Assembly: GCF_017355885.1 (NCBI RefSeq) | Contig: NZ_JAFEUU010000024.1 | Location: forward strand, 1-41,237 | Direction of reading: 5' to 3' | Source: Sabulicella rubraurantiaca | GTDB taxonomy: Bacteria; Pseudomonadota; Alphaproteobacteria; Acetobacterales; Acetobacteraceae | DNA: 41,237 bases | Shown here: positions 3,469 to 27,858 of the stretch, in pieces | How the letters are laid out: every line of letters begins with the position of its first letter | Numbering within the stretch: the stretch's first letter is position 1 | Translations under genes and position numbers: made by a program | The notes under the pieces: model-generated | What the model was told of the DNA's origin: nothing | Seen by the model: the letters and a program-made list of their open reading frames with translations, nothing else | The model's database searches: none

Positions 3469-5886
3469 TCAGTGAGCACTCTGTCGGTCATCGATCTTGA
3501 CGGAACGCAGCCGCAAGGCGTTCCCCACCACGCTCACCGATGAGAGCGCCATCGCGGCAGCTGCGATGACGGGCGAAAGCAGAATGCCGAAGAAAGGATA
3601 GAGCAAGCCCGCCGCGATCGGCACGCCAGCAGCATTGTAGACGAAGGCGAAGAACAGGTTCTCGCGGATATTGCGCATCACCGCCTTCGACAGGCGTCGT
3701 GCGCGCACGATGCCCGTCAGGTCGCCGCCCAGCAGCGTCACCCCCGCGCTCTCGATGGCAACGTCTGTGCCGGTTCCCATCGCCACCCCAACCTCGGCTG
3801 CGGCCAGGGCTGGGGCATCGTTGACGCCATCACCCGCCATGGCGACGCGCCGGCCCTCGCCCTTCAGGCGCTCGACGATGCGCTGCTTGTCCTCGGGCAG
3901 AACCTCCGCCTCGACCTCGGTGATTCCGAGGCGCCGCGCCACGGCCTCGGCAGTGGTCCGGTTGTCGCCGGTCAGCATCACCACACAGATGCCCTCGGCC
4001 CGGAGCCCATCGAGTGCCGCTTGCGTGGTGTCTTTGATGGGGTCCGCAACCGCGATGAGGCCGGCTGGGGCACCATCCAGGGCGACAAAGAACACGGTCG
4101 CTCCATCGCCCCGGAGGCGCTGCGCCTCGTCTACCAGGGCACCAGGATCCACGCTCAGTTCCACCATCAGGCGGGCGTTTCCGATGGCGACGCGGCGGCC
4201 CTCGACCGTTCCGGTGACGCCGCGGCCGGAAGGCGCGTCGAACCCCTCGACCGCTGGAATGGTCAGGCCACGGTCGGCCGCGGCGCGAACCACTGCCTCC
4301 GCGAGCGGGTGCTGGCTTGGGCGCTCCAGCCCGGCGGCAAGGCGCAGCAGGTCGCCCTCGGTCACCCCAGAGACCGGCACCACGGCAACCACCTCCGGCC
4401 GCCCCTGCGTGAGGGTGCCGGTCTTGTCGACAATCAGGGTGTCGATCCGCTCGAGGCGCTCCAGCGCTTCGGCATTCTTGATCAGCACGCCAACCTGGGC
4501 GCCACGGCCGACCCCCACCATGATCGACATTGGCGTCGCCAAGCCGAGGGCGCAGGGGCAGGCAATGATCAGCACCGTCACCGCGGCTATGAGGCCGAAG
4601 GCTAGGCGCGGCTCAGGCCCCCAGATGGACCACGCGGCAAAGGCAAGCACGGCGACGACGACAACGAGCGGCACAAACCATCCCGCGACCTGATCAGCCA
4701 AGCGCTGGATCGGCGCGCGGGACCGCTGCGCACCCGCGACCATCCGCACGATCTGGGCGAGCACGGTGTCCTGCCCGACGCGGTCGGCGCGCATGACAAA
4801 GGAACCCTGCCCGTTGAGCGTTCCGCCGACCACCCGCGCGCCCGGGGCCTTCTGCACCGGCACAGGCTCACCGGTGACCATGCTCTCGTCGACGTTGGAG
4901 CGGCCTTCCAGCACTTCCCCATCCATCGGCACCTTGTCGCCGGGCCGGACGCGCAGGCGGTCCCCCACATGCACATGGGTAAGTGGGATCTCCGCCTCGT
5001 CGCCATTGGGGCCGATCCGTCGCGCCGTCGGCGGGGCGAGGTCTAGAAGAGCGCGGATCGCACCCCCGGTCCGCTCGCGCGCCCGCAACTCCAGCACCTG
5101 TCCCAACAGGACGAGCACGACGATGACGGCGGCGGCCTCGAAATAGACCGCGACGGACCCGTCCCCGGCGCGGAAGGCAGCCGGGAAGATGCCGGGCGCC
5201 ACGGTCGCGACGACGCTGAAGACCCAGGCGACGCCAGTGCCGAGCGCGATCAGGGTGAACATGTTGAGCGAGCGGTTGCGGAGGCTCGCCCAGCCCCGTT
5301 CGAAGAAGGGCCAGCCCGCCCAGAGGACGACCGGAGTGGCCAGCACGAGCTGGATCCAGTTTCCGACGCGCGGGCCACCGACCAGGTGCATCATGCCCGT
5401 GAGGTGCCCACCCATCTCGAGCAGGAAGACAGGGATCGTCAGGGCCAGCCCAACCCAGAAGCGGCGGGTGAAATCGGCAATCTCGGGGTTTGGCGCCGCC
5501 TCTGCGGTCGGCATCTCGGGTTCGAGCGCCATCCCGCAGATGGGGCAGTTGCCCGGCCCAGGCCGGCGGATCTCCGGGTGCATCGGGCAGGTGTAGACGG
5601 TGCCGGGCGCCACCGTCTCGGCGCGGAGCGCAGGCTTAGGGACAGTGTACTTGGCAGGGTCGGCGACGAACTTCGTGCGACAGCCGGCCGAGCAGAAATG
5701 ATAAGCGACGCCAGCGTGCTCGGCGTGGTGGGGCGTCGTGGCCGGATCGACGGTCATCCCGCAGACAGGATCCTTCACCGTGTTGGCTTCGTCGGCCACC
5801 ATCCCTCCGTGGTGCTGGACGCTGGGCCCAGGATCGCGGTGGGCAGCCCCGTGTCGATGATGGGCGTGGTGATCGTGGTCGCTCAT
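3469..5886 (-). CDS. copA: Copper-translocating P1B-type ATPase
   Basis: This is an inner-membrane ATPase of about 805 residues that exports Cu(I) (or Ag(I)) from the cytosol. The start [13 protein letters not shown] is set by a 4-nt ATGA overlap with the upstream membrane-protein gene. In order it has a His-rich N-terminus, a YHS domain (about residues 37-80, [12 protein letters not shown]...FCSAGC), and a heavy-metal-binding segment (YTCPMHPEI...[12 protein letters not shown]). Then come the membrane segments, the TGEP actuator loop, the CPC ion-binding motif ([11 protein letters not shown]), the phosphorylation site DKTGTLT and the hinge [10 protein letters not shown]. The usual ferredoxin-like HMA domain with MxCxxC is missing and is replaced by the YHS and CPMHP modules, an arrangement known in a subset of Cu ATPases. 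It is the last gene of the metal cluster. Confidence 0.95.
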
Positions 5887-6425
5887 GACGGTCTTCCAAG
5901 AGTACGGGGTGAGCCTGACAACTGCCGGGCGGCGGCGAGACAGAGCGGCGGAAGGAGGAGCCACTGAAGGATGGGGGAGAGGCCGGTTCCGAGCGGGGGC
6001 AGCGTCGGCATGGCAGGGGCATAGGCCCAGCTTCGCCAGACCTCGACGTTCAGCCACTCGAGAAGGACGGTCGCAGCGACCCCCGCCGCCGTGGCGACGA
6101 GGCCGACGTGCCAGAAGTTCTCGCCCGGCCACCGCCAGGACCGCGTCAGGACCACCGCGGCAGCCAGGGCCGTTGCACCGATCGCGCCATCGCCGACCGT
6201 GCAGTGGGCGACGCCAAAGGCGATTTCCCCTGGGCTCCCTTCCGTCCACAGCGTGTAGAGCGGCAAGTGGACTAACTCCCAGGCGAGGTTGGCGCTGAGC
6301 AGCAGGCCAAGGTACTGGCCCGCGAGCGCCAGGGCGGCCTTCCCTGCAGGCTCCGGCCCCAGCACCCGCTCAGCTCTCGCGCGAGGAGCCAGAAGCCCTG
6401 CCGCCATGGCTGTGGCCGTGCCCAC
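5883..6425 (-). CDS. Polytopic membrane protein of the metal cluster
   Basis: I do not recognise the family. The protein of about 175-180 residues has about four hydrophobic segments (around [56 protein letters not shown] and [18 protein letters not shown]), so it should sit in the inner membrane. It starts with GTG at 6425 or, more likely, ATG at 6407, inside the end of the DUF2933 gene. Its stop overlaps the CopA start as ATGA, so the two are probably translationally coupled. That position suggests a supporting role in copper export, but nothing in the sequence shows the function. It has few Met, Cys or clustered His residues that would bind metal. Confidence 0.75.
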
Positions 6426-6615
6426 CGTGCATGAAAAGGTGCATCAGCGGACAGGCCAGCAGCAGGAGGTAGGGCAGTGCGCCAAGGACGTGGCCCCAGT
6501 GTTCGCGCACCACGTAAAAGGCGGCAACGAGGACGAAGCCGAGAACGGCGATGCCCACGGGCGTGCGCCACCAGGACGGCCGCACGGTGCCTCTTTCGTG
6601 CGTTGCGTGGTCCAC
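6370..6615 (-). CDS. DUF2933-type small membrane protein
   Basis: This is a protein of about 81 residues with one clear hydrophobic region (TPVGIAVLGFVLVAAFYVV, then [29 protein letters not shown]). The [16 protein letters not shown] ending is typical of DUF2933 proteins, which sit beside copper genes. The Cys, Met and His residues there could bind metal at the membrane. The start is inferred as GTG at 6615, because the preceding gene stops at 6617-6619, leaving only one base between them, and the family begins MDHA-like. A longer frame reaches 6753 but lies within the preceding gene. Confidence 0.75.
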   Translation of the reverse strand: MDHATHERGTVRPSWWRTPVGIAVLGFVLVAAFYVVREHWGHVLGALPYLLLLACPLMHLFMHGGHGHSHGGRASGSSRES

Positions 6616-6616
6616 C

Positions 6617-7216
6617 TCAGTGCATCCCCATCCGCATGGATCGGAAATGCTCGGCCATGAGTTCGTCGGCCGTGCGGCGCTGCTCCTCCGAGAGCGCGGC
6701 GTAGAGCGGCCCAGCGGCGGCCGAGACGGCCCGCATCGCTTCGAGTTGGGCACTGAGGAGGGCGATCCGCCGCTCTATTTGCTGCGGCGCCGGCGTGGCG
6801 CCCGGAGCACCCTGCATGCTCGCCTGCACAGCGGCATGCAGACGCCCCGATTGAGCGCGGACGGCCTCGGCATAGGTGTTCCACTGCGTCGCCTGGGCGT
6901 CAGTGATCCGCAGCTCCGCGCGGATGAAGGCGAGCCGCCCCTCCACGCGTCGGAACGGCTGCGTGGCCATCGCCATCCGGCGTTCCTGCATCATCCGCAT
7001 CATGTCGGCCCTACCGCCGCCCATCATGCCACCCGGGCCGCCCATCCCCATGCCTCCCTGCTGCGGCGGGCGCTCCGGCGCGCCGGGCGCCGCTTGTACG
7101 CCCTGCGGGTGGTGGGCGGTGTGTCCGTCATTCGTACCGGGCGCTTGCGCCAGAGCCATGCTGATCGTGCCCAGCGCCAGCGCGGTTGCGGCGGCCAGTC
7201 CTGTAAGCTTTCTCAT
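6617..7216 (-). CDS. Spy/CpxP-like periplasmic protein
   Basis: This is a periplasmic protein of about 199 residues. The start MRKLTGLAAATALALG at 7216 has AGGAGG placed just upstream and gives a clear signal peptide ending near ALAQA. After it comes a His/Met/Gly-rich linker (GGMGMGGPGGMMGGG, MMRMMQERRMAM), then a helical region with the LTxxQ-type signature (LRITDAQATQWNTYAEAVR) of the Spy/CpxP superfamily. Related proteins act as periplasmic chaperones or metal-stress sensors. The Met-rich part suggests copper binding, which is inference. It sits between the DUF411 and DUF2933 genes on the same strand. Confidence 0.8.
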   Translation of the reverse strand: MRKLTGLAAATALALGTISMALAQAPGTNDGHTAHHPQGVQAAPGAPERPPQQGGMGMGGPGGMMGGGRADMMRMMQERRMAMATQPFRRVEGRLAFIRAELRITDAQATQWNTYAEAVRAQSGRLHAAVQASMQGAPGATPAPQQIERRIALLSAQLEAMRAVSAAAGPLYAALSEEQRRTADELMAEHFRSMRMGMH

Positions 7217-7309
7217 GATGCTCCTCCTGATCTCGCCTTGGTGCGGGTTCTGTCCCAACCGTTCTTTTCGACAATTCCTGCGTCGCGCGCTTTGACCCCG
7301 CGCAAGGTT

Positions 7310-7777
7310 TCAGGTCGGACGCGCACCCGTGAAGCGCATGAAGGGCCGGTGCGAGCCGTCCGCTCGCCACGCGACCACGTCGTAGGTCTCCGGCGCATGC
7401 CCTGGCACCTCCATGCCTGGGCTGCCGACCGGCGTGGCAGGGACCGCAAGGCCGACGATCCCAGCGGGCCGTTCCGACAGGAGGCGACGGATGGCCGGGG
7501 CCGGCACGTGACCCTCCAGCACGAAGCCGGCCACCCGTGCCGCATGGCAGGAGAGGAGGTCGGACGGCGTGCCGAGCATGCGCCGGACTGGCGAGACGGA
7601 AGCGACGACCCGGTCCTCCACCGTGAACCCCTCGGTTCGAAGGTAGTCCACCCAGCCGGAGCAGCAGCCGCAATGGGGATCGCGCCAGACCTCGATCTGG
7701 GGCGCCTGGGCGGAGGCGGTGAAGCCGGTCGCAGCCCATGCCGCCGTGCCAAGAATGAAGCTTCTGCGTGAGGTCAT
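7310..7777 (-). CDS. DUF411 family exported metal-binding protein
   Basis: This 155-residue protein has a twin-arginine-like signal (MTSRRSFILGTAAWAATGF). The DUF411 core starts at IEVWRDPHCGCCSGWVDYL, a thioredoxin-fold-like region with the CGCC metal-binding pair. It continues to CHAARVAGFVLEGHVPAPAI, a conserved stretch of the family. Members are encoded in copper resistance clusters and probably bind copper in the periplasm. The gene begins 23 bp after the DUF305 gene and shares its operon. Confidence 0.85.
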   Translation of the reverse strand: MTSRRSFILGTAAWAATGFTASAQAPQIEVWRDPHCGCCSGWVDYLRTEGFTVEDRVVASVSPVRRMLGTPSDLLSCHAARVAGFVLEGHVPAPAIRRLLSERPAGIVGLAVPATPVGSPGMEVPGHAPETYDVVAWRADGSHRPFMRFTGARPT

Positions 7778-7800
7778 GGCCCTCGTCTCCGGAGTGGGTC

Positions 7801-8424
7801 TCAGCGATTGGTTGGACGCTGCAGGAAAGCGCGTAGCTCGGCGATCTCACGCTCCTGCTCGCGGACCACCGCCTCGGCCGTGCGGCGCATCTCAGGATCG
7901 CGGCCGTACTGGAGTTGGACCCGTGCCATGTCGATCGCGCCCTGGTGATGGGGGATCATCGCAGCAGCGAAATCGCGGTCGGCATCGCCCGTAAACTGGA
8001 TTGCCATATCGCGGTGCATCTTCTGGTTGGCGGCCTGGAACGCGGCCGTTGACGGGGAGGCAGCTGCGCCCGGTGCCGGGGCGGCGCTATGGTCATGCGC
8101 GCCGCCGCCAGGCTGGCTCCGCGCCGCGCCATGGTGCATGCCCCCATGGCCCATGCGGCTCATCATCTGGGCGTGCATCTCGGGCGTCATGCGTTGGCGC
8201 ATCGCACTGTAGACCTGTGCCATCTGCTCGGGTGTCAGGTCCTGCATCATCCCCATCATCTGCTGGATCTGCTCGGCGGTCGGCGCAGCCCGGTGCGGGG
8301 CGGCCTGGGCCGGCGCGGCACCGTGGCCGCCATGGTTCTGCAAGCCCTGTGCAGCCGCCAAACTGGCGCCTCCAACGGCGAGAGCGGCGATGGCGAAGGT
8401 GGCCCTGATCGTGGCGCTTGGCAC
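7801..8424 (-). CDS. DUF305 family exported protein (CopM-like)
   Basis: This is the first gene of the second metal operon, 207 residues from a GTG start at 8424 with a GAGG upstream. A signal peptide (ATFAIAALAVGGASLAAAQG) is followed by a His/Met-rich half (MMGMMQDL, MHAQMMSRMGHGGMHHG). The DUF305 core follows: FAAAMIPHHQGAIDMARVQL, with the conserved MIPHHQ metal ligands. DUF305 proteins bind copper in the periplasm in some bacteria. A candidate operator for the response regulator lies 69-85 nt upstream. Confidence 0.88.
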   Translation of the reverse strand: MPSATIRATFAIAALAVGGASLAAAQGLQNHGGHGAAPAQAAPHRAAPTAEQIQQMMGMMQDLTPEQMAQVYSAMRQRMTPEMHAQMMSRMGHGGMHHGAARSQPGGGAHDHSAAPAPGAAASPSTAAFQAANQKMHRDMAIQFTGDADRDFAAAMIPHHQGAIDMARVQLQYGRDPEMRRTAEAVVREQEREIAELRAFLQRPTNR

Positions 8425-8492
8425 GGTGTCTGTCCTCTGCAGATGTTATGTTGCCATCTTGCGCACGGAGCGCGTCGTTGCTTCTCCAGCTC

Positions 8493-8509
8493 GTGACATA
8501 GTGTTGCAG
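8493..8509 (-). promoter_or_regulatory. Candidate response-regulator site before the DUF305-copA operon
   Basis: On the minus strand the site reads CTGCAACACTATGTCAC. It shares 12 of 17 positions with the perfect inverted repeat at 15970-15986 (GTGACATACTTTGTCAC), including the ACT core and the whole TGTCAC arm. It lies 69-85 nt before the GTG start at 8424, a distance close to that of the other site from its gene. TGACA-spacer-TGTCA is the known form of CusR-type copper boxes. Binding is inferred. Confidence 0.55.
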
Positions 8510-8559
8510 GAGCGTTCGTGCTGCCCGCAGCAATGTCGCGATGCCCCAGGCTGCCTTCG

Positions 8560-9900
8560 TCATCCCTGGCCGCGAGGCAGGACCACGCAGGCGAGCAGGC
8601 CACCTTGCTGGCTCTCCTTGAGTTCGAGACCGCCGCCACTCGCCTCCGCGAAGCGTGCCGCGATGGCGAGGCCAAGTCCGCTCCCTCCCCTCCCCCGAGC
8701 AGCGTCGAGTTGAACGAAAGGCTCGAGCGCCCGAGCGCGGTCCCCGGGTGCGATGCCTCGCCCGGCATCGGAGATCTCGACCACGACCCGGCTGCCCTCG
8801 TCACGAACCGCCAAGCGCACGGGCGGAGCGCCATGGGTGATGGCGTTTTCGACCAAGTTGGACAGCGCCCGTTTCGCTGCGAGGCGGCGCAGTGGCAGGA
8901 CGACGCGGGCCGGTCCCTCATAGGCGGCATCGTGGCCCATATCGGCAGCATCCGAAGCCAGGGTCTGGAGAATCGCCGCCAAGTCGGTGGCGCGTGCGGG
9001 TTCGGCGTCGCGCCCCTCCCGGATGTAGTCCAGCGTGCGACCCACCATCGCCTCCATCTCGGCGATGTCGGCTTCCATCCGCTCCCGGTCCTCCCCCTCC
9101 GGCAGGAAGCCCGCCCGCAGCTTGAGGCGGGAAAGCGGCGTCCGCAGGTCATGGCTCATGGAGGCGAGCGTCTCGGTCCGGTCCTCGATCAGGCGGCGGA
9201 TCCGCTCCTGCATGGCATTGAAGGCTGCTGCCGCGTGCTGCACCTCGCTGGGGCCATCGGTGGGCAGGGGCCTGGTGTGGAGGTCACGCCCGATCTTGTC
9301 CGCGGCATCGGCGAGGCGGCGCAGGGGGTGGGTGATCCAGCGAACGACGAGCGCCGAAGCGAGCGCGATGCCCAGCGTCATCGCGACCATGGACGCGAGC
9401 ACATTCCCGCCTTCTGGCGCATCGCCGGGTGCCCCGATCCAGTTAGCGGAGAACACGAGCCAGCCCCCCGCCTCGAGGGGGATGCCGCCCACAGCACGGT
9501 GGCCGGCCTCGGCCTTCGGATCCCAGCCAAGACGGGCACCCGGACCCAGCCGGGCTGCCACCGACGCCAGCGGGGCAGGCGGCGCGATGTCGGGCAGCGG
9601 GGCAATCCGGTCCCAATGCAGCTCGATGCCCGGTACGGATAGGGCATGGGCGGCCGCATCCCGCGACGCTTCCGGCGTGTTCGCGACCGTGGCGCTGGCG
9701 GCGGAGATCCGCCCCAGGAGCCGTTCCAGTCGCGCCCCGCTTTCGGCCCCGTGCAGCGCCTGCTCGTGCACCACCATGCTGCCGAGGTGCAGCAGCGTGA
9801 GGCCGCCGAGGAGAAGGACGGTGATGCGGCCGGCGAGGCTGCGGGGCCACAGCCAGCGCACCCCGCGAGGGCGAGCTTCGTTCTCGCCGCCTGCGCTCAC
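8560..9900 (-). CDS. Two-component sensor histidine kinase
   Basis: This is a 446-residue membrane histidine kinase. It has a first hydrophobic helix (RITVLLLGGLTLLHLGSMVV), a periplasmic part of about 110 residues, and a second helix (VLASMVAMTLGIALASALVV). A HAMP linker (WITHPLRRLADAADKIG), the His-box SMSHDLRTPLSRLKL, the N-box NLVENAITHG and the ATP-lid motifs DAGRGI and GGSGLGLAIA follow. It overlaps the response regulator stop by 4 nt (ATGA), so the pair is coupled. The context suggests sensing of periplasmic copper or silver, as CusS does. The sensor region has no obvious Cys/Met/His cluster, so the ligand is unproven. Confidence 0.92.
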   Translation of the reverse strand: MSAGGENEARPRGVRWLWPRSLAGRITVLLLGGLTLLHLGSMVVHEQALHGAESGARLERLLGRISAASATVANTPEASRDAAAHALSVPGIELHWDRIAPLPDIAPPAPLASVAARLGPGARLGWDPKAEAGHRAVGGIPLEAGGWLVFSANWIGAPGDAPEGGNVLASMVAMTLGIALASALVVRWITHPLRRLADAADKIGRDLHTRPLPTDGPSEVQHAAAAFNAMQERIRRLIEDRTETLASMSHDLRTPLSRLKLRAGFLPEGEDRERMEADIAEMEAMVGRTLDYIREGRDAEPARATDLAAILQTLASDAADMGHDAAYEGPARVVLPLRRLAAKRALSNLVENAITHGAPPVRLAVRDEGSRVVVEISDAGRGIAPGDRARALEPFVQLDAARGRGGSGLGLAIAARFAEASGGGLELKESQQGGLLACVVLPRGQG

Positions 9901-10649
9901 GCCCGCGCCACTTCCGCGACGAAGACGTAGCCCGCACCCCGGACCGTCTTGATCAGGGACGGGCTGTCCTCCTCGGGCTCGATCTTCCGGCGGAGGCGGC
10001 TGACCTGGACATCCACCGTCCGGTCGAAAGGGTCGACGCCAACGCGACGCTTGGCCACCTCGAGCAGTTGCTCGCGCGACAGGACCCGGCCCGGGTGCTC
10101 AAGAAAGGCCAGCAGCAGGTCATACTCCGCGCCCGACAGGTCAACGACCGCACCATCCGGCGAGGTCAACTCGCGCCGGGCGGCGTCGAGCACCCAGCCA
10201 GCGAAGGTCAGGTGGCGGGAGCGCGGGTCTCTCTCGGCCTCGGCTGGAGCGGCCCGGCGTAGCACCGCCCGGATGCGGGCGACCAGTTCCCGGGGTGCAA
10301 AGGGCTTCGCCACGTAGTCATCGGCACCTAGTTCGAGGCCTAGGACACGGTCCATCTCTTCGCCCCGCGCGGTGAGCATCATGACCGGGATGCGGCCGCG
10401 TTCGCGTAGCTTCCGGAGCAGGTCGAGGCCGGAGCTTCCGGGCAGCATCACATCGAGCAGAACGAGGTCGGGCTCCCCAGCCGGGCTCTCCATGACCTCC
10501 CACATCTCGCGTCCGTCGCGGGCGAGCGAGACGCGATATCCAGCCTCGCGCAGGAGACGCGCCACAAGCTGGCGCATCTCGCCATCGTCCTCCACGACGA
10601 GGAGATGCGCCTCCGGGTCGAGGAGGCGGCGCTCCGACGCTTCGTTCAT
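9897..10649 (-). CDS. OmpR-family response regulator
   Basis: This is a 250-residue DNA-binding regulator. The receiver domain has the acidic pair in VVEDDGEMRQLV, the phospho-acceptor Asp in LVLLDVMLPGSSG, the Thr/Ala switch in VMMLTARG and the Lys in DYVAKPF. The C-terminal winged helix (LTSPDGAVVDLSGAEYDLLLAFLEHPGRV...RTVDVQVSRLRRKIE) is of the OmpR/PhoB type. It overlaps by 4 nt with the gene on either side. It probably controls both metal operons through the GTGACA-type sites at 15970 and 8493, as CusR or CopR would. Confidence 0.93.
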   Translation of the reverse strand: MNEASERRLLDPEAHLLVVEDDGEMRQLVARLLREAGYRVSLARDGREMWEVMESPAGEPDLVLLDVMLPGSSGLDLLRKLRERGRIPVMMLTARGEEMDRVLGLELGADDYVAKPFAPRELVARIRAVLRRAAPAEAERDPRSRHLTFAGWVLDAARRELTSPDGAVVDLSGAEYDLLLAFLEHPGRVLSREQLLEVAKRRVGVDPFDRTVDVQVSRLRRKIEPEEDSPSLIKTVRGAGYVFVAEVARA

Positions 10650-11047
10650 TGCACCGGGTCGGCCGGGGTGAACCGGGCCTGGACACGGGCAACGCCCGGC
10701 CGCGGCACGATCTGGACCACAACCCGCAAGCCCGGCGTCGCCTTGAACTCGCCAGCCGCAACCAGCGCAGCGCCGTCGGGCCGGGGGGCAAGAGGCAGGG
10801 TCTGCTGGCGCTCTTCGGACAAGACGATCGCAGTGCCGGACGCCTCTCGCATCGCAACCGGACGGTCGTTGTGGTCGAGCAGAAACAGGATGATTTCACC
10901 GTCCCGTGCGACCAACTCGCCGTGATAGGGCCCGACGTCTTGGACCTGGCCGCCATTCGGGCCACGCCCCCCGGCGGGGACGTGGGCCGAGGCTGTGGTG
11001 GGGACCAGGACGCTGAGTGTGCCAAGAAGGCTTCGCCGAGTGATCAC
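10646..11047 (-). CDS. Small exported protein between the RND pump and the regulator
   Basis: I do not recognise a named family. The GTG start at 11047 has GAGGG upstream and follows the pump stop by 16 bp; an open frame reaches back to 11143 but lies inside the pump gene. The 133-residue product has a Tat-like signal (ITRRSLLGTLSVLVPTTASA). A compact domain follows (GPNGGQVQDVGPYHGELVARD...ILFLLDHNDRPV), resembling the small beta domains found with CzcB/CusB-type adaptors. Its stop overlaps the response regulator start as ATGA. A role as a periplasmic accessory of the pump or as a sensor partner is inference. Confidence 0.7.
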   Translation of the reverse strand: MITRRSLLGTLSVLVPTTASAHVPAGGRGPNGGQVQDVGPYHGELVARDGEIILFLLDHNDRPVAMREASGTAIVLSEERQQTLPLAPRPDGAALVAAGEFKATPGLRVVVQIVPRPGVARVQARFTPADPVQ

Positions 11048-11063
11048 TTTGGTTTTCCCTCTG

Positions 11064-14000
11064 TCAGTATGTGTCTGCTGTCGCGTGCGAACGAGAGCCG
11101 GTCTCGGCATTCCGTTCGGATGCCTCGGCACGCAAACGTTCAAGCGCGGGCCGGCCGAAGCGATGAAAGAGGATGGGCGTCACTAGCGTATCCAGCAGCG
11201 TGGCGCTGACGAGGCCACCCAGGATCGTGACAGCCACCGGGTGGAGGATCTCCTTCCCGGGCGCCTCCGCCCCCACCGCAAGCGGAACGAGGGCCAATCC
11301 CGCCGAGAGGGCGGTCATGAGCACCGGCGTCAGCCGCTCCGCACTGCCGCGCAGGATCAGCCCTAGTCCCCATCGCTCGCCCTCATGGAGGGCGAGGTTG
11401 AGATAGTGGCTCACCTTCAGGATGCCGTTGCGCGTGGTGATGCCCGTCAGCGTCACAAAGCCAACCATCGTCGCGACTGAAAGGGGCTGGCTGGTGATCC
11501 AGAGCGCGGCCACCGCCCCAATCAGAGCCAGCGGCACGTTGCCCATGATGATCGCGGCCAGCATGGCCGAGCGATAGCGAGAGTAGAGCACGGTGAAGAT
11601 GAGCGAGAGCGAAACGATGGCGAGGATCGCGATGGTCTGCATCGCTTCCTCCTGAGCCTGGAAGGTGCCCTCGAGGCTCGTGGTGTAGCCGGGTGGCATC
11701 GGCACGGCAGCGACCTCGGCTCGGATCGCGGCCACTGCAGCCGACATGTCGGTGCCGGGCGCGGTGTTGGCGAGCACGACCATCCGGCGCCTTGCGCCCT
11801 CGCGGAGGATCTGGTTCGGCCCGTCCGCCTCCTCCACCCGAGCCAGCAGGCGCAGAGGCACCCGCCCGCCCGGCGTCTCCACCAGCGCTTCGGCCAGACG
11901 GGCCGTGGTGCGGTCCTCGTCAGCGAGGCGTAGGACAACATCGAAGCGGCGGGCGCCATCCATGATCTGACTGACGACAGCGCCGCCCGTGAGCGCCTCC
12001 AGCGTCTCGGTCAGGCTGGCTGCGGAGACACCGTAGAGGGCAGCCCGCTCATGATCGACCGCGATGCGGAGTTGTGGCACGCGCACCTGGCGCTCGAGCT
12101 GAAGATCAGCGAGCCCCGGCACGTTTGCGGCCAGCCGTGCCCGCAGCGTCTCCGACAACGTCCGCAGCGTGTCGAGGTCGTCGCCGAAGACCTTCAGCGC
12201 GATCTGCGCCCGGACGCCCGAGAGCATGTGGTCCAGCCGGTGACTGATAGGCTGGCCGATGTTAACGGCTGCCGGCAGGCCGGACAGGCGAGCACGGATG
12301 TCGGCCAACACCTCTCCCCGTGGCCGCGCGCCCTCGCGAAGATCGAGGTCGATCTCGGAGGAGTGGACGCCTTCCGCGTGCTCGTCGAGTTCGGCCCGGC
12401 CGGTTCGGCGTCCAACGCCCTTGACCTCCGGGATCTCCAGCAGAAGCCGCTCCGCCACGCGGCCTAGGGCGTCGCTTTGCGCAAGCGAGATGCCGGGCTG
12501 GTAGGTAACGCTGATGACCAGCGTCCCCTCGTTGAAGGGCGGCAGGAAAGTCCGAGGCAGGAAGGGAACGCTCGCCGCGGCCAGCGCCACGCCCGCGGCG
12601 GCCACGCCAAGGACGAAGGAGCGGTGCCCGAAGGCCCATCGCAATGCATGGTCATTTCCGGCCTTGAGCGCCCGCACCAGCCAGCCGTCATGCTCGCCCA
12701 TCCGGCGCATCCGGGGCAGCAGCCAGTAGGACAGCACCGGCGTGACGGTGACCGCCACGAGCAGCGAGCAGAGGATCGAGACCATATAGGCCACCCCAAG
12801 AGGCGCGAAGAGCCGCCCCTCGATGCCGGAAAGCGCAAAGAGCGGGATAAAGACCAGGACGATGATGAGCGTGGCGTAGACGATGCCCGACCTCACCTCG
12901 GCACTGGCATGCGCGACGACCGAGAGCACCGGCTCCGGCTCCCCGCACTCGCGGTTCTCGCGGAGGCGGCGGAAGATGTTCTCGACGTCCACCACGGCAT
13001 CGTCCACCAGCTCGCCGACGGCGATGGCAATGCCGCCGAGCGTCATCGTGTTGATGGAGAGGCCGAAGGCGGCGAAGACGATCGCGGTGAGCAGAATGGA
13101 GAGCGGGATCGCCGTCAGGGAAATGAAGGTCGTCCGGGTGTTGAGCAGGAAGGCGAAAAGCACCACTGCGACGACGAAGAAGGCTTCCACCAGCACCTGC
13201 TGAAGGTTGGCGATCGACTGCTCGATAAAGTCGGCTTGGCGGAACTTCACCCGGTCAGCGGCGACGCCGCGCGGCATTCCAGCCTGCAATTCCCGCAGCG
13301 CCGCCTCGACCGCGCGGGTCAGGCGGATCGTATCAGCCCCGGGTTGCTTGGCGATGGCGAGGATCACGGCGGGCGCGCCATCCACCCCTGCCTCGCCCCG
13401 CTTGAAGCGGGCCCCGTAATCGACTTCCGCCACCTGCCGGAGCGCGATGGGCTGCCCCTCGCGGAAGCCGACCGTGGCGTTGCGCAGGTCCTCGAGCGAT
13501 GTCGTCCGGCCGATGTTGCGGATCAGGTACTCGCGCCCCGCCTGGTCCACGTAGCCCCCGCCCGCATTGACGCCGAACTGGCGCAGGGCGGTGGCGAGTT
13601 GGTCGTAGGTGATTTCGAGAGCGTGGAGGCGGTCGAGATCGGGCATGACCCGGAACTGCCGGACCTCTCCGCCGATCGGGATCACCTGACTGATGCCGGG
13701 GATGGTGAGAAGGCGGGGGCGCATCACCCAATCTGCCAGCTCGCGCAGCTGCATCGGGGTGACGGAGCCATCCTGCGGCGCCGTCATGGCGACCAGCATG
13801 ATTTCCCCCATGATGGAGGAAACGGGCGCCATCGCCGGCAGCACCCGTGGCGGCAGCTGGGACTGGATTTGCCCAAGCCGCTCCGAGACCTGCTGGCGGG
13901 CGCGCCAGATGTCCGCGCCCCAATCGAACTCGACGAAGACGATGGAGAGCCCGACCGAAGACACCGACCGGACGCGGGTGACCCCCGGCAGACCGTTCAC

Positions 14001-14216
14001 CGCCGTCTCAATCGGGAAGGAGACGAGCTGCTCCACCTCCTCCGGCGCGAAGCCCTCGGCCTCGGTCATGAGGGTGACGGTGGGCTTGTTGAGGTCAGGG
14101 AACACGTCGACCGGCATGCGGGGGAGCGTCCACGCGCCATAGCCCGAGACGAGCAAGGCCACGACAAGGACGAAGATCCGGTTTCGGAGCGAGAAGCCGA
14201 CGATGGCGTTGAACAT
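11064..14216 (-). CDS. HME-RND heavy-metal efflux pump (CzcA/CusA family)
   Basis: This 1050-residue inner-membrane proton antiporter is the full family length. It starts MFNAIVGFSLRNRIFVLVVALLVSGYGAWTL-like with the family's first helix. It has the porter motifs (PVDVFPDLNKPTVTLMTEAEG, then TRVRSVSSVGLSIV) and a second repeat starting at SVPFLPRTFLPPFNEGTL. The fourth-helix proton-relay segment reads AVGELVDDAVVDVEN. This differs from the DFG-type signature of Zn/Co/Cd pumps and from the GAMVDAA signature of CusA, so the substrate cannot be assigned from the sequence; copper is suggested by the neighbours. The adaptor gene ends one base before it. No outer-membrane factor gene is nearby. Confidence 0.93.
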   Translation of the reverse strand: MFNAIVGFSLRNRIFVLVVALLVSGYGAWTLPRMPVDVFPDLNKPTVTLMTEAEGFAPEEVEQLVSFPIETAVNGLPGVTRVRSVSSVGLSIVFVEFDWGADIWRARQQVSERLGQIQSQLPPRVLPAMAPVSSIMGEIMLVAMTAPQDGSVTPMQLRELADWVMRPRLLTIPGISQVIPIGGEVRQFRVMPDLDRLHALEITYDQLATALRQFGVNAGGGYVDQAGREYLIRNIGRTTSLEDLRNATVGFREGQPIALRQVAEVDYGARFKRGEAGVDGAPAVILAIAKQPGADTIRLTRAVEAALRELQAGMPRGVAADRVKFRQADFIEQSIANLQQVLVEAFFVVAVVLFAFLLNTRTTFISLTAIPLSILLTAIVFAAFGLSINTMTLGGIAIAVGELVDDAVVDVENIFRRLRENRECGEPEPVLSVVAHASAEVRSGIVYATLIIVLVFIPLFALSGIEGRLFAPLGVAYMVSILCSLLVAVTVTPVLSYWLLPRMRRMGEHDGWLVRALKAGNDHALRWAFGHRSFVLGVAAAGVALAAASVPFLPRTFLPPFNEGTLVISVTYQPGISLAQSDALGRVAERLLLEIPEVKGVGRRTGRAELDEHAEGVHSSEIDLDLREGARPRGEVLADIRARLSGLPAAVNIGQPISHRLDHMLSGVRAQIALKVFGDDLDTLRTLSETLRARLAANVPGLADLQLERQVRVPQLRIAVDHERAALYGVSAASLTETLEALTGGAVVSQIMDGARRFDVVLRLADEDRTTARLAEALVETPGGRVPLRLLARVEEADGPNQILREGARRRMVVLANTAPGTDMSAAVAAIRAEVAAVPMPPGYTTSLEGTFQAQEEAMQTIAILAIVSLSLIFTVLYSRYRSAMLAAIIMGNVPLALIGAVAALWITSQPLSVATMVGFVTLTGITTRNGILKVSHYLNLALHEGERWGLGLILRGSAERLTPVLMTALSAGLALVPLAVGAEAPGKEILHPVAVTILGGLVSATLLDTLVTPILFHRFGRPALERLRAEASERNAETGSRSHATADTY

Positions 14217-14217
14217 G

Positions 14218-15909
14218 TCAGCGCACCTGGGCGATCAGGCCGGCGCCCTGGATGACGACGCGACGGCCCGCGTCGAGGCCGGCCGTCACCACCACCCGTG
14301 TTCCGTCGAGCGGCTGCACCCGGACCTGCCGGGGGACGAAGCGCTCGGCGCTCGCATGCTCGAAGACGACAGGCGGGCCCTCGGCGGAGCGAACCACGGC
14401 GTCGGCCGGCAGGACGATACCCTGGACGGCCCGGGCGGTGCGTAGCGTGACAAGCAAGGATGCGCCAATGGGCGCATCCGCAGGTGGATTCACGACCCGG
14501 AAGTTCACCGGCACGGCCTGTTGCCGCACGGTCAGTCCGCGACCGACGAAGGCCAGTTCGATGACCCGACCATCCGTGAGGGTGGCACTCGCGCCGGTGA
14601 TCTGATCGAGCGCCGCGCGTTCGAAGGCCAACGCCTCCACCCAGAGCCGTGACGGATCGACGATGTCGAACACGGTGGCGGCGCTGTCCACGAGCTGGCC
14701 GACTGCGCCCCTCACGGTGGAGACGACCCCGGAGACCGGCGCGACGAGAGGTTCCCGGCCCGAGAGCGCCGGCTGGATGGCAGTTCGGCGCTGCCGCGCG
14801 CCGGCGAGTTCAGTCTGCGCGTCCTGGATCTCGCGCTCTGCCACGGTGCCACGGAGCGTCGTGAGGCGGCGGACGCGGGCCTCAAGGATGGTGATTTGCG
14901 CGTCGAGTTCGGCGGCATTCTGGATCAGCCCGCCCCGCTCGGCCGCGGTGTAGGTGGGCACGACATAGGCAAGGATCTGCCCGCGCTCGACCTGTTGGCC
15001 AAGCGTCGGGAAGCCACGGTCGCCCGGTTCGAGACGGCCAGTCTGGCTCGGCTGGACCCTGCCTGAGGCGTTGGGGTCGGGCACAAGGGTGCCGATCATC
15101 CGGACGGAGGCGGAGGCCTCGCCGGCCTCGGTCATCTGGGTGCGGATGGTGAGCAGCCGCTGAGAGGCCTTCGGGACGAAGATCGCGCCATCATCGAGAC
15201 GGCGGGACGCCTCGGAAGGGGCGGATGTGCCGGGCGCCGTGGTGCTCGCGAGCGCTGGTGCCGAGGCGACCGCCGCGAGGAGGCTGAGCACGGCGACACG
15301 CCGGGGTACAGCCGGCTTTTGGGCCGCCGGAACTGGCCCTGGCTGGGCGGGCGCCTCTTCGACCATTGGGGGCAGCGGGCGGCGGACGGAGCCGCGACCG
15401 ACCAAGACGCCAAGAAGGAGGAGCCCGGTACCGATCCCTAACTGGACCGGTAGCTCGCGGAGGAGGCCCAGGAAATCAGCCGATGGGCTGGCTGTGGCCG
15501 GTGCGGCCGGCACCTCCAGCGTCGCAGTCAGTAGGTCCATCTCGTCACCGGCGGTGACGGTGAAGACGATGTCGCGCTGGCCCGGCTGGGCCAGGAGGGC
15601 GTGGCGCGCAACAAAGAGGCCGAGCCCCTGTCGCTGCGCTGCGATCTCCTGCCCGTCGAGGGTGAGGGTCACGGCACCATCCAGCGGTGCGTTGTCGGAG
15701 AACCGGTCGAGCCAAATGGTGAGGGTGCCGTCGGGACCGAGGACGGCCACAAGTTCGAAGAGGCCGCTTTGCGCCTCGGCCCGAGGCAGCGCCGTGGCGA
15801 CGGCCTGTGGCGCGTCGTGGTCGTGCCCTTCATGCGCCTGGGTGGCTGGCGTCCCGGTCAGGAAGAGCATGGCAGTGAGGCAGAAGGTGAAGATAGTGGG
15901 CAGGCGCAT
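14218..15909 (-). CDS. RND periplasmic adaptor subunit (CusB/CzcB-like)
   Basis: This is a 563-residue membrane-fusion protein that would link the RND pump to an outer-membrane channel. A signal peptide ends near ATQAHEGHDHD, giving a His-rich mature N-terminus. An N-terminal beta domain (GPDGTLTIWLDRFSDNAPLDGAVTLTLDG) is followed by a hydrophobic segment (IGTGLLLLGVLVG) and a second signal-like stretch. Then come the classic adaptor parts: the barrel-sandwich (GRLEPGDRGFPTLGQQVERGQILAYVV), an alpha-helical hairpin (AAELDAQITILEARVRRL...) and beta-barrel repeats. It is long for the family because of the extra N-terminal domain. GGGAG-type RBS precedes the start, and it is the first gene of the pump operon. 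Confidence 0.9.
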   Translation of the reverse strand: MRLPTIFTFCLTAMLFLTGTPATQAHEGHDHDAPQAVATALPRAEAQSGLFELVAVLGPDGTLTIWLDRFSDNAPLDGAVTLTLDGQEIAAQRQGLGLFVARHALLAQPGQRDIVFTVTAGDEMDLLTATLEVPAAPATASPSADFLGLLRELPVQLGIGTGLLLLGVLVGRGSVRRPLPPMVEEAPAQPGPVPAAQKPAVPRRVAVLSLLAAVASAPALASTTAPGTSAPSEASRRLDDGAIFVPKASQRLLTIRTQMTEAGEASASVRMIGTLVPDPNASGRVQPSQTGRLEPGDRGFPTLGQQVERGQILAYVVPTYTAAERGGLIQNAAELDAQITILEARVRRLTTLRGTVAEREIQDAQTELAGARQRRTAIQPALSGREPLVAPVSGVVSTVRGAVGQLVDSAATVFDIVDPSRLWVEALAFERAALDQITGASATLTDGRVIELAFVGRGLTVRQQAVPVNFRVVNPPADAPIGASLLVTLRTARAVQGIVLPADAVVRSAEGPPVVFEHASAERFVPRQVRVQPLDGTRVVVTAGLDAGRRVVIQGAGLIAQVR

Positions 15910-16065: not shown

Positions 16066-16506
16066 TCAGCCCTCGCGTATCCATGTGAACATCCCGACGA
16101 ACTTTCTGCCCGGTGCCAGTGGATGCTCCTGTAAGCCAGTCCTGAGCGTGAGGCGGTCCCCCTCCACCGCGAAGAACCGCACCTGCTCCGTGCCCTCCCA
16201 GGCAGGGTGCCATGCCACATCCACCGCGATTATGATCCGGTCACCCTCCACACGAAATCGCCCGGTGTAAGCCGTCATTCCGTTGAACAAGGCGGCGGCT
16301 TGAGCGTCGTCGGCTGGCGGCGAACGGCCAGAGCCAGTCATGACAAACATCGCCCGTCCCATCGGCTCGAAGACGGCGAAGCCACGGGGGTCAGGACGGA
16401 TAATCACCTCCCCGGTATCCTCCATCCGGCGCTCGTTCTGAACCAAACGCCAGGCTCCCAGCAGCATCCTGTAATTTGGTGCAGCTCCGTCCATCGTCTC
16501 CATCAT
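16066..16506 (-). CDS. Lipocalin-like domain protein
   Basis: This 146-residue protein begins MMETMDGAAPNYRMLLGAWRLVQNE with GGGAG just upstream. It shows the pattern of the lipocalin-like family (PF13924-type): an initial LLGAWRLV, a PDPRGFAVFEPMGRAMFVMT strand region, AYTGRFRVEGDRIIIAVD, and a closing FAVEGDRLTLRTG. No signal peptide is visible, so it should be cytoplasmic. The ligand is unknown. It lies upstream of the RND operon on the same strand and has its own start region; no link to metal resistance is evident. Confidence 0.7.
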   Translation of the reverse strand: MMETMDGAAPNYRMLLGAWRLVQNERRMEDTGEVIIRPDPRGFAVFEPMGRAMFVMTGSGRSPPADDAQAAALFNGMTAYTGRFRVEGDRIIIAVDVAWHPAWEGTEQVRFFAVEGDRLTLRTGLQEHPLAPGRKFVGMFTWIREG

Positions 16507-16809
16507 CGTGCTCCCGCGCGTGGCTGGGGGGGCCGGACCGGCCTTCGCCTGATCACGATAACGTAGGCCCCTCAGTGCCGCGAAAGGTTCAGTGTCAATC
16601 GGGAAGCCGCAGGTTGGGCCGCTCGGGCGGCATTAGCGGCTTCATCGCCGCCCAAGCCCAATCGGAAGCAAAAGGCTTTGCCATGACAGCCCACTGCTCG
16701 GAACCCAGTGACGTCAGGCTGTTTTAATCGGCGATGCCGCTGCAACCGGCGATGATGCCTCTGGCGCCGCGTAACCTCGTCCACGCGCCATGAAGGAGAC
16801 CGCTTGGGT
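16507..16809. other. Noncoding stretch before the HWE kinase remnant
   Basis: I see no gene here. The open frames crossing it on both strands are low-complexity GC frames without family features. It is probably decayed sequence continuous with the pseudogene next to it. Confidence 0.35.
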
Positions 16810-17403
16810 TCAGTCCACCGGTGCCGCTTTGGGCTCTCTTGTGGTGAACTGGCCCTCCAGTGGCACTTCGATGTCGCACCAACCCCGTCCGCTCCCAGGC
16901 GAGCGACAGGCCGCCCCCAGTTGCACGCGCACCGTGCCATCGAGAACTCGCGGCCCGAAGCCCTGCCGCGTCGGTGGGTCAGCCAGCGGACTCGTACCCG
17001 TCTCGGCCCACCGTCCACTCGCCAGCACACGGAGACACGACCGCTGGGCTCCGAGAGCGCGCCGTACTTCACCGCATTCGTCGCAAGCTCGTGCACCGCC
17101 ATGGCCAGCGGCTCTGTAGCGGAGGCCGGCACGATCAGTCGCGGCCCGTCCAAAACCAATCGCTGGCCATCTCCGATGAAAGGTGCCAGTTCACCGTCCA
17201 GCGGTCGTCGGCAAGCGGGGCCTGTGCCCGTGCCAAGACCGCTATCCGCCCCTCGACCGCCTGCCGCTACGAGGTGGGAACCGGCGCCTGCGCGAGCCAC
17301 AGCGCGGATTGCACCACGGCCAGGACGTTCTTGGCACGGTGCTCCACCTCACGCGCCATCAGGCGCTGGCGCTCCTCCGCCTTCTTGCGGTGAGTGCCGT
17401 GCC
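16810..17403 (-). pseudogene. Decayed HWE-type histidine kinase
   Basis: Pieces of one kinase appear in successive frames. MAREVEHRAKNVLAVVQSAL is the His-box of the HWE/HisKA_2 family and is closed by a stop at 17267. VEGRIAVLARAQAPL follows in another frame. LDGELAPFIGDGQRLVLDGP and HELATNAVKYGALS, the N-box, lie in a third. The C-terminal RVLDGTVRVQLGAACRS...DIEVPLEG is shifted once more and ends at 16810. At least three frameshifts make the gene non-functional. The intact kinase at 26594-27421 belongs to the same family. Confidence 0.75.
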
Positions 17404-17787
17404 AAACAACACCCGCCATCCGCAACTTGCGGGTCAGCGGCTCGGGCTCGGCGGGGACTCACTTCTCGAGCCAAGGGTTCCTGCCGCTGATCGGCCGGAA
17501 GATCCGGAACTTGGAGTGTCACGCCGTGGCGTGCGTGACATCGTCCTGAGCAAGGGCGCGATGGCGCTCGACGTCTTCGAGATGCAGCAGGCTCAGCCCT
17601 GCGAAATTGCTTTCGAGCGTTTCGCTTGGCCGGGCGTTGGGGGCTTCTCTAGTGCCTACCAGAGCGAGCAGCCCGCCGACCAGAAGCGGTACCTGGCAAG
17701 TGACGTGCCAGAAGCCGCTGAAAACTGTTCAATCATTTAAATTCGTCTGACATGACGCTGACTTCCAGTTGCAAACCACGCGCAGAA
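17404..17787. other. Noncoding or decayed region
   Basis: No supported gene is visible. It may contain the lost N-terminal sensor part of the kinase pseudogene: a minus-strand segment reading LSLLHLEDVERHRALAQDD is open but matches nothing I can name. Confidence 0.35.
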
Positions 17788-17817
17788 GCGGCCCTGGCTC
17801 GCGCGAGCCAGGGCCGC
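17788..17817 (-). terminator. Perfect 30-nt palindrome, probable terminator
   Basis: The 30 bases form a perfect palindrome with arms GCGGCCCTGGCTCGC. It stands 35-64 nt after the stop of the sorting-tail protein gene at 17852. A strong GC hairpin at a gene end fits a transcription terminator, though no long T run follows on the minus strand. Confidence 0.65.
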
Positions 17818-17851
17818 GCTTGTTCACACCGCTTGGAGCGGCGGCTTGTGC

Positions 17852-18538
17852 TCAGGCAGCGACCATGCGGCGGACTGCCGCGAGGCCGAGCAGGCCGATA
17901 CCCAGGAAGGCGAGGCCCGCCGGCGCCGGCACGGCCACCTGCGAGGCGCTTGCGTCACCGCTGACGCTCGCCGTGAAGTGGCAGATGGTCGAACCGCAGA
18001 TATCGAGCGCCTGGGACAGCGCCGTGAAGGTGAAGCCGAGAGCAGACGGATCCTGTAGTTTGGAAGCTGGGATCTGGTCGGAGGTGAAGTTGACCGAGCC
18101 CGGCGGTTGGCTCGCGACCAGGCTGGCCTGGAAGCCGCCTTGCGGCCCAGCGACGCGCGAGCCGGCCAGGGCGATGTCGGCAAAGCTGCCCGACAGATAG
18201 TTGGTACCGGTGCCGCCTGCGCCCGAGGTGATGCTGAAGCTGCCCGAGAAGGCCTGGAAGACGTCGGTGCCGGCCACGAGGGTCGCGCTACCTGTGCTGG
18301 TCGCATTCAGGTTCAGGAAAGCCTGAAAGGGCGTCGGCGTGCTGTCCGCATAGCCCGACACCGTGATCGCCACGTCCGTCCCGGTCAGGGTCGTCGAGGT
18401 GCCGGCAATGGAGTTGGCGGTGATCGTGTTGGTCGTCGAGTTTTGCGCGAAGGTGATGATGGTGACCGGCGCCGCCTGGGCCATGGCGCCCAAGCCAACA
18501 AAAGCAGCCGTCGTGGCCAGTAGAGCTAGCTTCCTCAT
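17852..18538 (-). CDS. Exported protein with PEP-CTERM-like sorting tail (first)
   Basis: This 228-residue exported protein has no named family in its body. The start at 18538 has GAGGAG upstream. A signal peptide (MRKLALLATTAAFVGLGAMAQA) leads to a Thr/Ser/Gly/Asn-rich beta-type domain (FAQNSTTNTITANSIAGTST...). The C-terminus VAVPAPAGLAFLGIGLLGLAAVRR is a PEP-CTERM-like signal of the VPAPA form: a short Pro motif, a hydrophobic helix and terminal arginines. Such proteins are taken to the outer surface by an exosortase system. No exosortase is seen in the window. It pairs with the gene upstream, which has the same tail. Confidence 0.8.
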   Translation of the reverse strand: MRKLALLATTAAFVGLGAMAQAAPVTIITFAQNSTTNTITANSIAGTSTTLTGTDVAITVSGYADSTPTPFQAFLNLNATSTGSATLVAGTDVFQAFSGSFSITSGAGGTGTNYLSGSFADIALAGSRVAGPQGGFQASLVASQPPGSVNFTSDQIPASKLQDPSALGFTFTALSQALDICGSTICHFTASVSGDASASQVAVPAPAGLAFLGIGLLGLAAVRRMVAA

Positions 18539-26593: not shown

Positions 26594-27421
26594 TTAAATA
26601 CGGTCGGTCAATGCCAAGGCCCTGCTACCTGCCTCTTTGCCCGGCGACTCAAAGGCGTACTGACGCTCCGTCGCTGCGCTGTCCAGCCTGTTCGCAAGAG
26701 GGAAGTGGATCTTGCAGACCAGCCCCGTTTCTTCCCAGCGACAGTCGATCTGGCCCATCAACTGATCGCGCACGATGCCATCGATCAAGGTCGAGCCAAT
26801 GCCATGACGTCCCGGCACAGCGCACGGGGGCGGCCCGCCACATTCGACCCAATCCAGCGCGATCCAGCCTTCGCGCAGCGTCCAGCGCAGCTGTACCCGG
26901 CCCTGCGCCGCGGACAGCGCTCCGTATTTCAAGGCGTTTGTCGCCAGTTCATGTAGCACCATAGCCACGGGCTGCACGACGATGGCGGAAAGGAACACCT
27001 CAGGGCCTTCAATCGTTACCGCCTCGTCGTTGCCCGCAAGATAGGCGGCGAGTTCGCGCTCAGCGATCCTGCGAAGGGTGGCATGTCCCCAGCCGTGATC
27101 GGCGAGGAGACAATGAACGCGCGACAATGCCTGGATCCGCTCGGTGACCGAGCGCTTGAAGCAGGCAGGGTCATCAGATGGTGTGAGCGTGACGAGCCCC
27201 TGGACTACGCCGAGCAGGTTCTTGGCGCGGTGGTCCACTTCCTGAGCGAGAAGCAGGCGCGCCTGCTCACCCCGCTCCTTGGAAGCTGCTGCCTCTTTCG
27301 CCGCAGCCTCCGTCCTTTTGATCTGGCGCGCCACCTCGGCCATCTCGCGCTTGAGCGCGCGGTTCCAGGCCAGCAGCAGCGCAACCGTCGCCAGGGGAAG
27401 CAGGAGAAGGAGACTGGTCAT
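26594..27421 (-). CDS. HWE-family histidine kinase
   Basis: This 275-residue kinase starts at 27421 as part of an ATGA overlap with the membrane-protein gene upstream. It has one N-terminal membrane helix (MTSLLLLLPLATVALLLAW), a charged coiled coil (about residues 24-58), the His-box EVDHRAKNLLGVVQG with His64, the N-box HELATNALKYGALS and the family's WxE motif in LDWVECGGPP, then HGIGSTLIDGIV. It lacks a sensor domain of its own. The partner encoded just before it probably supplies the input. No response regulator is adjacent. Confidence 0.85.
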   Translation of the reverse strand: MTSLLLLLPLATVALLLAWNRALKREMAEVARQIKRTEAAAKEAAASKERGEQARLLLAQEVDHRAKNLLGVVQGLVTLTPSDDPACFKRSVTERIQALSRVHCLLADHGWGHATLRRIAERELAAYLAGNDEAVTIEGPEVFLSAIVVQPVAMVLHELATNALKYGALSAAQGRVQLRWTLREGWIALDWVECGGPPPCAVPGRHGIGSTLIDGIVRDQLMGQIDCRWEETGLVCKIHFPLANRLDSAATERQYAFESPGKEAGSRALALTDRI

Positions 27422-27858
27422 GCCGGGCGATGGCTTTGCGCCAGCCGGACCGCGAGGCTGCCGATTGCCCGCCCATGGCGCAGCAGCCCAAGCGCCGTGC
27501 CAATGCTTGCGACCATCGTGACCTGCATGACGCCTGCGTGAAGCCAGTAGGTCCATCCCCCAACGAACAGGGTCACCAGATGCGTCAGATGTCCCAGCCC
27601 GCAGCTGAGGATGAACACGAAGAACATCAACAAGACCGAGCGGAATGGCATGATGCCGCCTGCACCCTTCAAGAAGCGCAGGATCGCGAAGGGGATCAGG
27701 AAATAGGCGGCTGCGATGCCCAGATTGGTCACGACCTCGTTGAGGATGACCGCGGGCTCGAGAAGGAGGCACACGGCGTGCGGCGCAAGACCACCGCCAT
27801 AGTGCTGAACCCAGTCATAGGTCAGCGCCGACACCAGCTCCAGCAAAGCCATCTCCAT
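27418..27858 (-). CDS. ETR1-like membrane sensor protein
   Basis: This 146-residue membrane protein resembles the ethylene-binding domain of plant ETR1 and its bacterial relatives. NLGIAAAYFLIPFAILRFLK aligns with ETR1 DFFIAIAYFSIPLELIYFVK, and FRSVLLMFFVFILSCGLGHL aligns with the segment carrying copper ligands Cys65 and His69; here they are Cys86 and His90. Asp25 of ETR1 is Asn45 here. The N-terminal HAVCLLLEP matches bacterial family members (HxxCLLW.P). Those relatives are usually fused to a kinase; this one is a separate gene whose stop overlaps the kinase start. It probably forms a sensor complex with the kinase in the membrane. The ligand, ethylene or otherwise, is unknown. Confidence 0.7.
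   Translation of the reverse strand: MEMALLELVSALTYDWVQHYGGGLAPHAVCLLLEPAVILNEVVTNLGIAAAYFLIPFAILRFLKGAGGIMPFRSVLLMFFVFILSCGLGHLTHLVTLFVGGWTYWLHAGVMQVTMVASIGTALGLLRHGRAIGSLAVRLAQSHRPA

Follow-up and report, generated by a model that had tools for sequence, protein, structure and literature searches.

A stand-alone ETR1_N membrane domain and a separate HWE histidine kinase encoded by overlapping genes in Sabulicella rubraurantiaca

The gene pair

The window analysed here is the entire 41,237-base contig C16 of Sabulicella rubraurantiaca, the genome of which amounts to 5.0 Mb in 64 contigs. A sequence-only reading of this DNA had proposed a split ethylene-receptor-like system, with an ETR1-type membrane domain and an HWE kinase encoded by separate genes coupled by an ATGA overlap, and both parts of the proposal were borne out. 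The overlap is read on the minus strand (table 1); the 146-aa sensor matched the Pfam ETR1_N family (PF25487) with 66 bits against a curated cut-off of 27, and thus does not fall in an unrelated membrane family; the 275-aa kinase, which is not fused to the membrane domain, matched HWE_HK (PF07536) with 69.6 bits (cut-off, 22.8).

Table 1. Coordinates, in the window, of the gene pair and of the copper-type gene cluster found on the same contig.
Feature	Coordinates	Strand	Basis
Stand-alone ETR1_N sensor (P0001), 146 aa, three membrane helices	27418..27858	-	PF25487, hydropathy, AF2
HWE histidine kinase (P0002), 275 aa, N-terminal hydrophobic helix	26594..27421	-	PF07536, hydropathy
ATGA start/stop overlap, sensor to kinase	27418..27421	-	Sequence
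P-ATPase with HMBD and YHS, LTXXQ, DUF411, DUF305, kinase/regulator pair, RND pump, periplasmic subunit	3469-15909	-	Pfam

Three hydrophobic stretches were found in the sensor by hydropathy analysis, and the AF2 model obtained from four sequences places helices at residues 2-20, 27-32, 35-63, 72-99, 103-127 and 129-142 with moderate confidence (mean pLDDT, 68.5). The kinase begins with a hydrophobic helix and further comprises a charged linker, coiled-coil-like by eye, the HWE_HK domain and an ATPase region. The single membrane helix initially assigned to it corresponds to the N-terminal one, but a second stretch (residues 142-160) also exceeds the hydropathy threshold and lies within the catalytic region. 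The motifs EVDHRAKN, HELATNALKYGALS and DWVE, recognized by eye, correspond to the phospho-acceptor His, the N-box His and the W-x-E element by which we take HWE kinases to be defined. No sensor domain was detected in this kinase by Pfam, which makes the ETR1_N protein its obvious input.

A promoter scan of the 26.3-28.4 kb region, a search for solved structures matching P0001 at E 1, and searches for a PHROGs family for P0001 and for an NCBIfam family for five sensors (P0001, P0003, P0004 and two others) gave no hits, and no response regulator turned up in those frames around the pair that were scanned.

The closest relatives and the origin of the split

The same two-gene layout is found in Roseomonas nepalensis (L098, NZ_RCZP01000044.1; the sensor protein is the same as that of G417:C92), where the sensor gene is followed, after a 5 nt gap, by that of a membrane-PAS-HWE kinase. 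The two sensors are 60% identical and form a clade (SH-aLRT 99) on a long stem, in a quick tree that included long rows. The divergence between their genes at the three codon positions is 0.33/0.21/0.51, with 32 of 55 fourfold sites differing, a third-position bias that fits a sensor gene under selection. Identity between the two kinases is 48% (198 aa); they were not resolved as sisters in the tree, so that kinase orthology is not claimed and, judging from these sequences, sensor and kinase may not have moved together. Within its own genome the R. nepalensis partner kinase ranks second among 35 matches to P0002, a rank that speaks neither for nor against orthology. As for the searches themselves, a scan of genome contigs with the sensor as a single protein returned no relative, and one with a two-sequence alignment recovered three loci, one of which is an orthologue.

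The S. rubraurantiaca genome also contains an intact fused paralogue (L002, at C11:381885), a 487-aa ORF comprising ETR1_N and a kinase, which lies apart from the sensor clade in the tree. The paralogue has both the Asp and the Lys of ETR1 discussed below, and its kinase is 35% identical to the window kinase over 206 columns.

By taking into account that most ETR1_N proteins are found in long ORFs, the present arrangement could have been generated from a fused gene by an indel or an assembly error. However, the split recurs in another genus, the window kinase begins with a hydrophobic helix that the fused forms lack, and its closest match in the same genome is a kinase scoring 163 bits rather than that of the fused paralogue (101 bits). 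With the intact fused gene being a separate one, this explanation was rejected, and we regard it as highly improbable.

Distribution of ETR1_N domains and of split pairs

Matches to PF25487 above the cut-off were obtained in 72/397, 28/385 and 28/398 genomes of three overlapping draws, for a union of 124 genomes; the loci were drawn from larger groups and the counts describe these draws only. ETR1_N is encoded by a separate gene directly preceding that of a membrane kinase in five of the 124 (G000, G417, G075, G535 and G638), so that the layout is found in four genomes besides the present one and the expectation that relatives are normally fused is supported. The G075 sensor, in which two hydrophobic stretches rather than three were detected at the threshold used, is of the Asn type, has Tyr in place of the Lys, and its gene overlaps by 4 nt with that of a CHASE3-HisKA kinase. 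The G535 and G638 sensors keep both Asp and Lys, are paired with HisKA membrane kinases through overlaps of 8 and 1 nt, respectively, and are followed, after the pair, by response-regulator genes. In G638 (L096:3788-8103) genes for SCO1/SenC, ETR1_N, the HisKA kinase (with a Cache match below cut-off), a receiver and a receiver-kinase follow each other in tight succession.

All five kinases of the split pairs start with a hydrophobic helix, three of them carrying a second one further on, whereas a hydrophobic stretch follows the ETR1_N domain in only 4 of 120 long ORFs (those at least 400 aa long and keeping Cys and His, some of them truncated where the locus ends). A single origin of the five split sensors was not rejected (p-AU 0.785), and the tree holding them together scored 29.6 log units above the quick free tree; long branches are present, so a single origin is not claimed. 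Orthologue-level matches to the window sensor are rare, being limited to the sensor itself among the 21 genomes of its genus, and to one of the 15 genomes of the genus of R. nepalensis.

Several other short frames were not counted as split pairs. The frames of L009, L102, L020 and L100 run into the contig end according to their coordinates, L017 is by eye a reduced fused gene, and in L057 and L060 the frame is disrupted within or close to a PAS-like part, again by eye. L181, L061 and L193 are pieces, L196 has an internal stop, and L059 has no kinase beside it. L067, with a kinase frame 18 nt on, was set aside as either a frameshift or a real split. L201, a 298-aa cyanobacterial ETR1_N frame on the Acaryochloris plasmid pMB03, was also set aside, with an IS1 transposase gene lying between the domain and the downstream ATP-binding gene. 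A further separate ETR1_N protein (L223:2533-3159, minus strand; G131:C291) keeps Asp, Cys and His, has Gly at the position of Lys91, and has no kinase in the stretch seen. Its neighbour is a GH108-domain frame, and tail-fibre and baseplate matches lie upstream of it, so that it occupies the place of a holin in what resembles a prophage; it gave no match in phage records.

In the literature searched, no paper on split ETR1_N/kinase pairs was found among the titles and beginnings of abstracts listed, which does not prove their absence in print.

Residues of the ligand site

Residues were numbered through a profile alignment with AzoEtr1 of Azospirillum brasilense Sp7, in which D35, C75, H79 and K98 correspond to D25, C65, H69 and K91 of ETR1 (PMC11819568). 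According to the same source, seven residues are required for ethylene binding, D25, C65, H69, I35, P36 and I62 being among them. The AYF-x-IP stretch and the Cys/His pair of the copper site had been recognized from the sequence alone, and were found as described: AYFLIP spans residues 51-56 of the sensor, and Cys65/His69 align with Cys86 and His90. Overall, six of the eight positions checked are retained, namely Tyr52 (Y32, which we take to be one of the seven binding residues), Ile55 (I35), Pro56 (P36), Ile83 (I62), Cys86 (C65) and His90 (H69). The alignment also confirmed that Asn45 occupies the position of Asp25, as first suggested, and revealed the loss of the partner Lys (Met111 at the position of Lys91), which had been missed.

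Asp25 and Lys91 are thought to couple binding to output, Lys91 being predicted to bond with Asp25. The ETR1 Asp has been modelled in a salt bridge with the conserved Lys, natural variants exist, and the Asp-to-Asn form of ETR1 is described as functional with an approximately 100-fold lower affinity (2026 review, PMC13012798). Mutation of D25 is elsewhere stated to abolish ETR1 binding, the substitution not being named at that point (PMC11819568).

To place the two replacements, 160 distinct ETR1_N domains with at least 70 aligned residues were surveyed, as drawn from 202 loci after dropping near-copies. The D25 position is occupied by Asp in 134 domains, by Asn in 15 and by other residues in nine, with two gapped; Lys is found at the K91 position in 136 of the 160. 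Three of the Asn-bearing domains are split sensors (window, R. nepalensis and G075) and the other 12 are in ORFs longer than 600 aa, taken as fused relatives, seven of which (L003, L105, L106, L108, L155, L166 and L167) keep Cys, His and Lys. Thus, the changed ligand that had been proposed from Asn45 does not follow: Asn is found mostly in long ORFs, and with Asp-to-Asn ETR1 being functional, Asn alone argues for a lower affinity rather than for a new ligand, so that the proposal is a weak one. That Asp and Lys are lost together is a more interesting departure than Asn alone, and with both residues absent the signalling route of ETR1 is not to be assumed for the window pair.

The partner Lys is absent in 8 of the 16 domains, the window one included, that lack Asp and keep Cys and His. 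Of the 135 rows with Cys/His in which neither position is gapped, 115 combine Asp with Lys, four have only Asp, eight only Lys and eight neither (Fisher p 2e-6). When the tree was taken into account, the independent pairs numbered 9 and 8 if all branches were used but only two if the branches had to be well supported, which is not enough for significance in a sign test; for this tree, domains without Cys65/His69 or with fewer than 85 residues were dropped, together with L151, L185, L086 and the rows gapped at either position. The association of the two losses, as it appears in these alignments, may be considered a lead.

Genomic surroundings

The genes at 3469-15909 form what, from the families they belong to, we take to be a copper-resistance cluster. 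The region had been described as rich in copper genes; such genes are indeed present, but the cluster ends 10.7 kb from the sensor/kinase pair, with transposase genes in between, and has its own kinase and regulator. Transposase genes are found at 19.8, 24.3, 35.8 and 38.0 kb, and a broken HWE kinase remnant is detected in several frames at 16500-17900 of the window (minus strand).

The presence of this cluster on the same contig, the SCO1/SenC gene directly upstream of the G638 pair, and the retention of Cys/His when Asp25 is lost would be consistent with a pair that responds to copper, the signal being the occupation of the Cys/His site by Cu(I), with no role for ethylene. We consider this unlikely by taking into account the distance, the intervening transposase genes and the two-component pair already present in the cluster, and that the two genes scanned upstream of the R. 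nepalensis pair encode a solute-binding protein and a permease, i.e. transporter parts without a copper family.

The transposase genes and the kinase remnant, along with the loss of both Asp25 and Lys91 and the rarity of orthologues, may also suggest that the ETR1_N gene is a relic, encoding a neutral membrane protein beside an unrelated HWE kinase in a decaying region. Both frames are, however, open, R. nepalensis maintains the layout with a sensor whose divergence is biased to third positions, and the layout recurs in three further genomes, so that a relic appears quite improbable.

Proposed mechanism and comparison with known systems

The ETR1_N domain with its copper-site residues, the overlap of the genes, the hydrophobic helix of the kinase itself and the recurrence of the layout are best explained, in our opinion with reasonable though not high probability, by a two-protein membrane receptor of a known family, made of a three-helix ETR1_N subunit and a separate kinase. 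We infer that the ETR1_N subunit would bind Cu(I) via Cys86 and His90, and that a small ligand would be held with it, either ethylene, with low affinity, or a small olefin resembling it. The sensor would be made together with the kinase and sit against its membrane helix, the signal passing from the former to the latter, and the kinase would then phosphorylate a response regulator whose gene lies elsewhere. Alphaproteobacterial HWE kinases often feed PhyR-type regulators. Residues 1-130 of AzoEtr1, expressed without the kinase, bind ethylene (PMC11819568), so that binding could survive the separation of the domain.

AzoEtr1 is, like the window pair, an alphaproteobacterial system with a three-helix ETR1_N domain, a Cys/His pair and a histidine kinase output. 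However, it is described as a single fusion of helices, PAS and kinase that has Asp35 and Lys98 and the gene of which overlaps that of a response regulator (PMC11819568), whereas in the window there are two proteins, with Asn and Met at these positions. Arabidopsis ETR1 shares the membrane domain family and the copper-site residues with the window sensor, but keeps Asp25 and Lys91. Its membrane domain is fused to GAF and kinase domains. The fused paralogue of the same genome differs in being a single ORF with Asp and Lys, its ETR1_N domain and kinase being related to those of the pair. Intramembrane-sensing kinases with little or no sensor domain, such as BceS with BceAB or LiaS with LiaF, also rely on a separate membrane protein; the resemblance is one of design only, the sensor families being unrelated.

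A broader and tentative proposal, which we would not yet favour, is that the ETR1_N proteins encoded on their own belong to a single lineage and serve as detachable subunits, sensing olefins through Cu(I), for membrane-anchored HWE or HisKA kinases (one with CHASE3), the Asn branch of which might signal without the Asp25-Lys91 latch through helix-helix contacts between the two proteins.

Concluding remarks

The pair represents a known receptor family in an arrangement that is uncommon for it. How a change in the ETR1 membrane domain is propagated to the kinase is described as unclear (PMC13012798), and a naturally separated sensor and kinase could be expressed, swapped and tested apart, so that this layout could help to clarify the communication between the sensing and the signalling part. 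Natural variants without Asp25 and Lys91 would, furthermore, test the need for that pair of residues in signalling.
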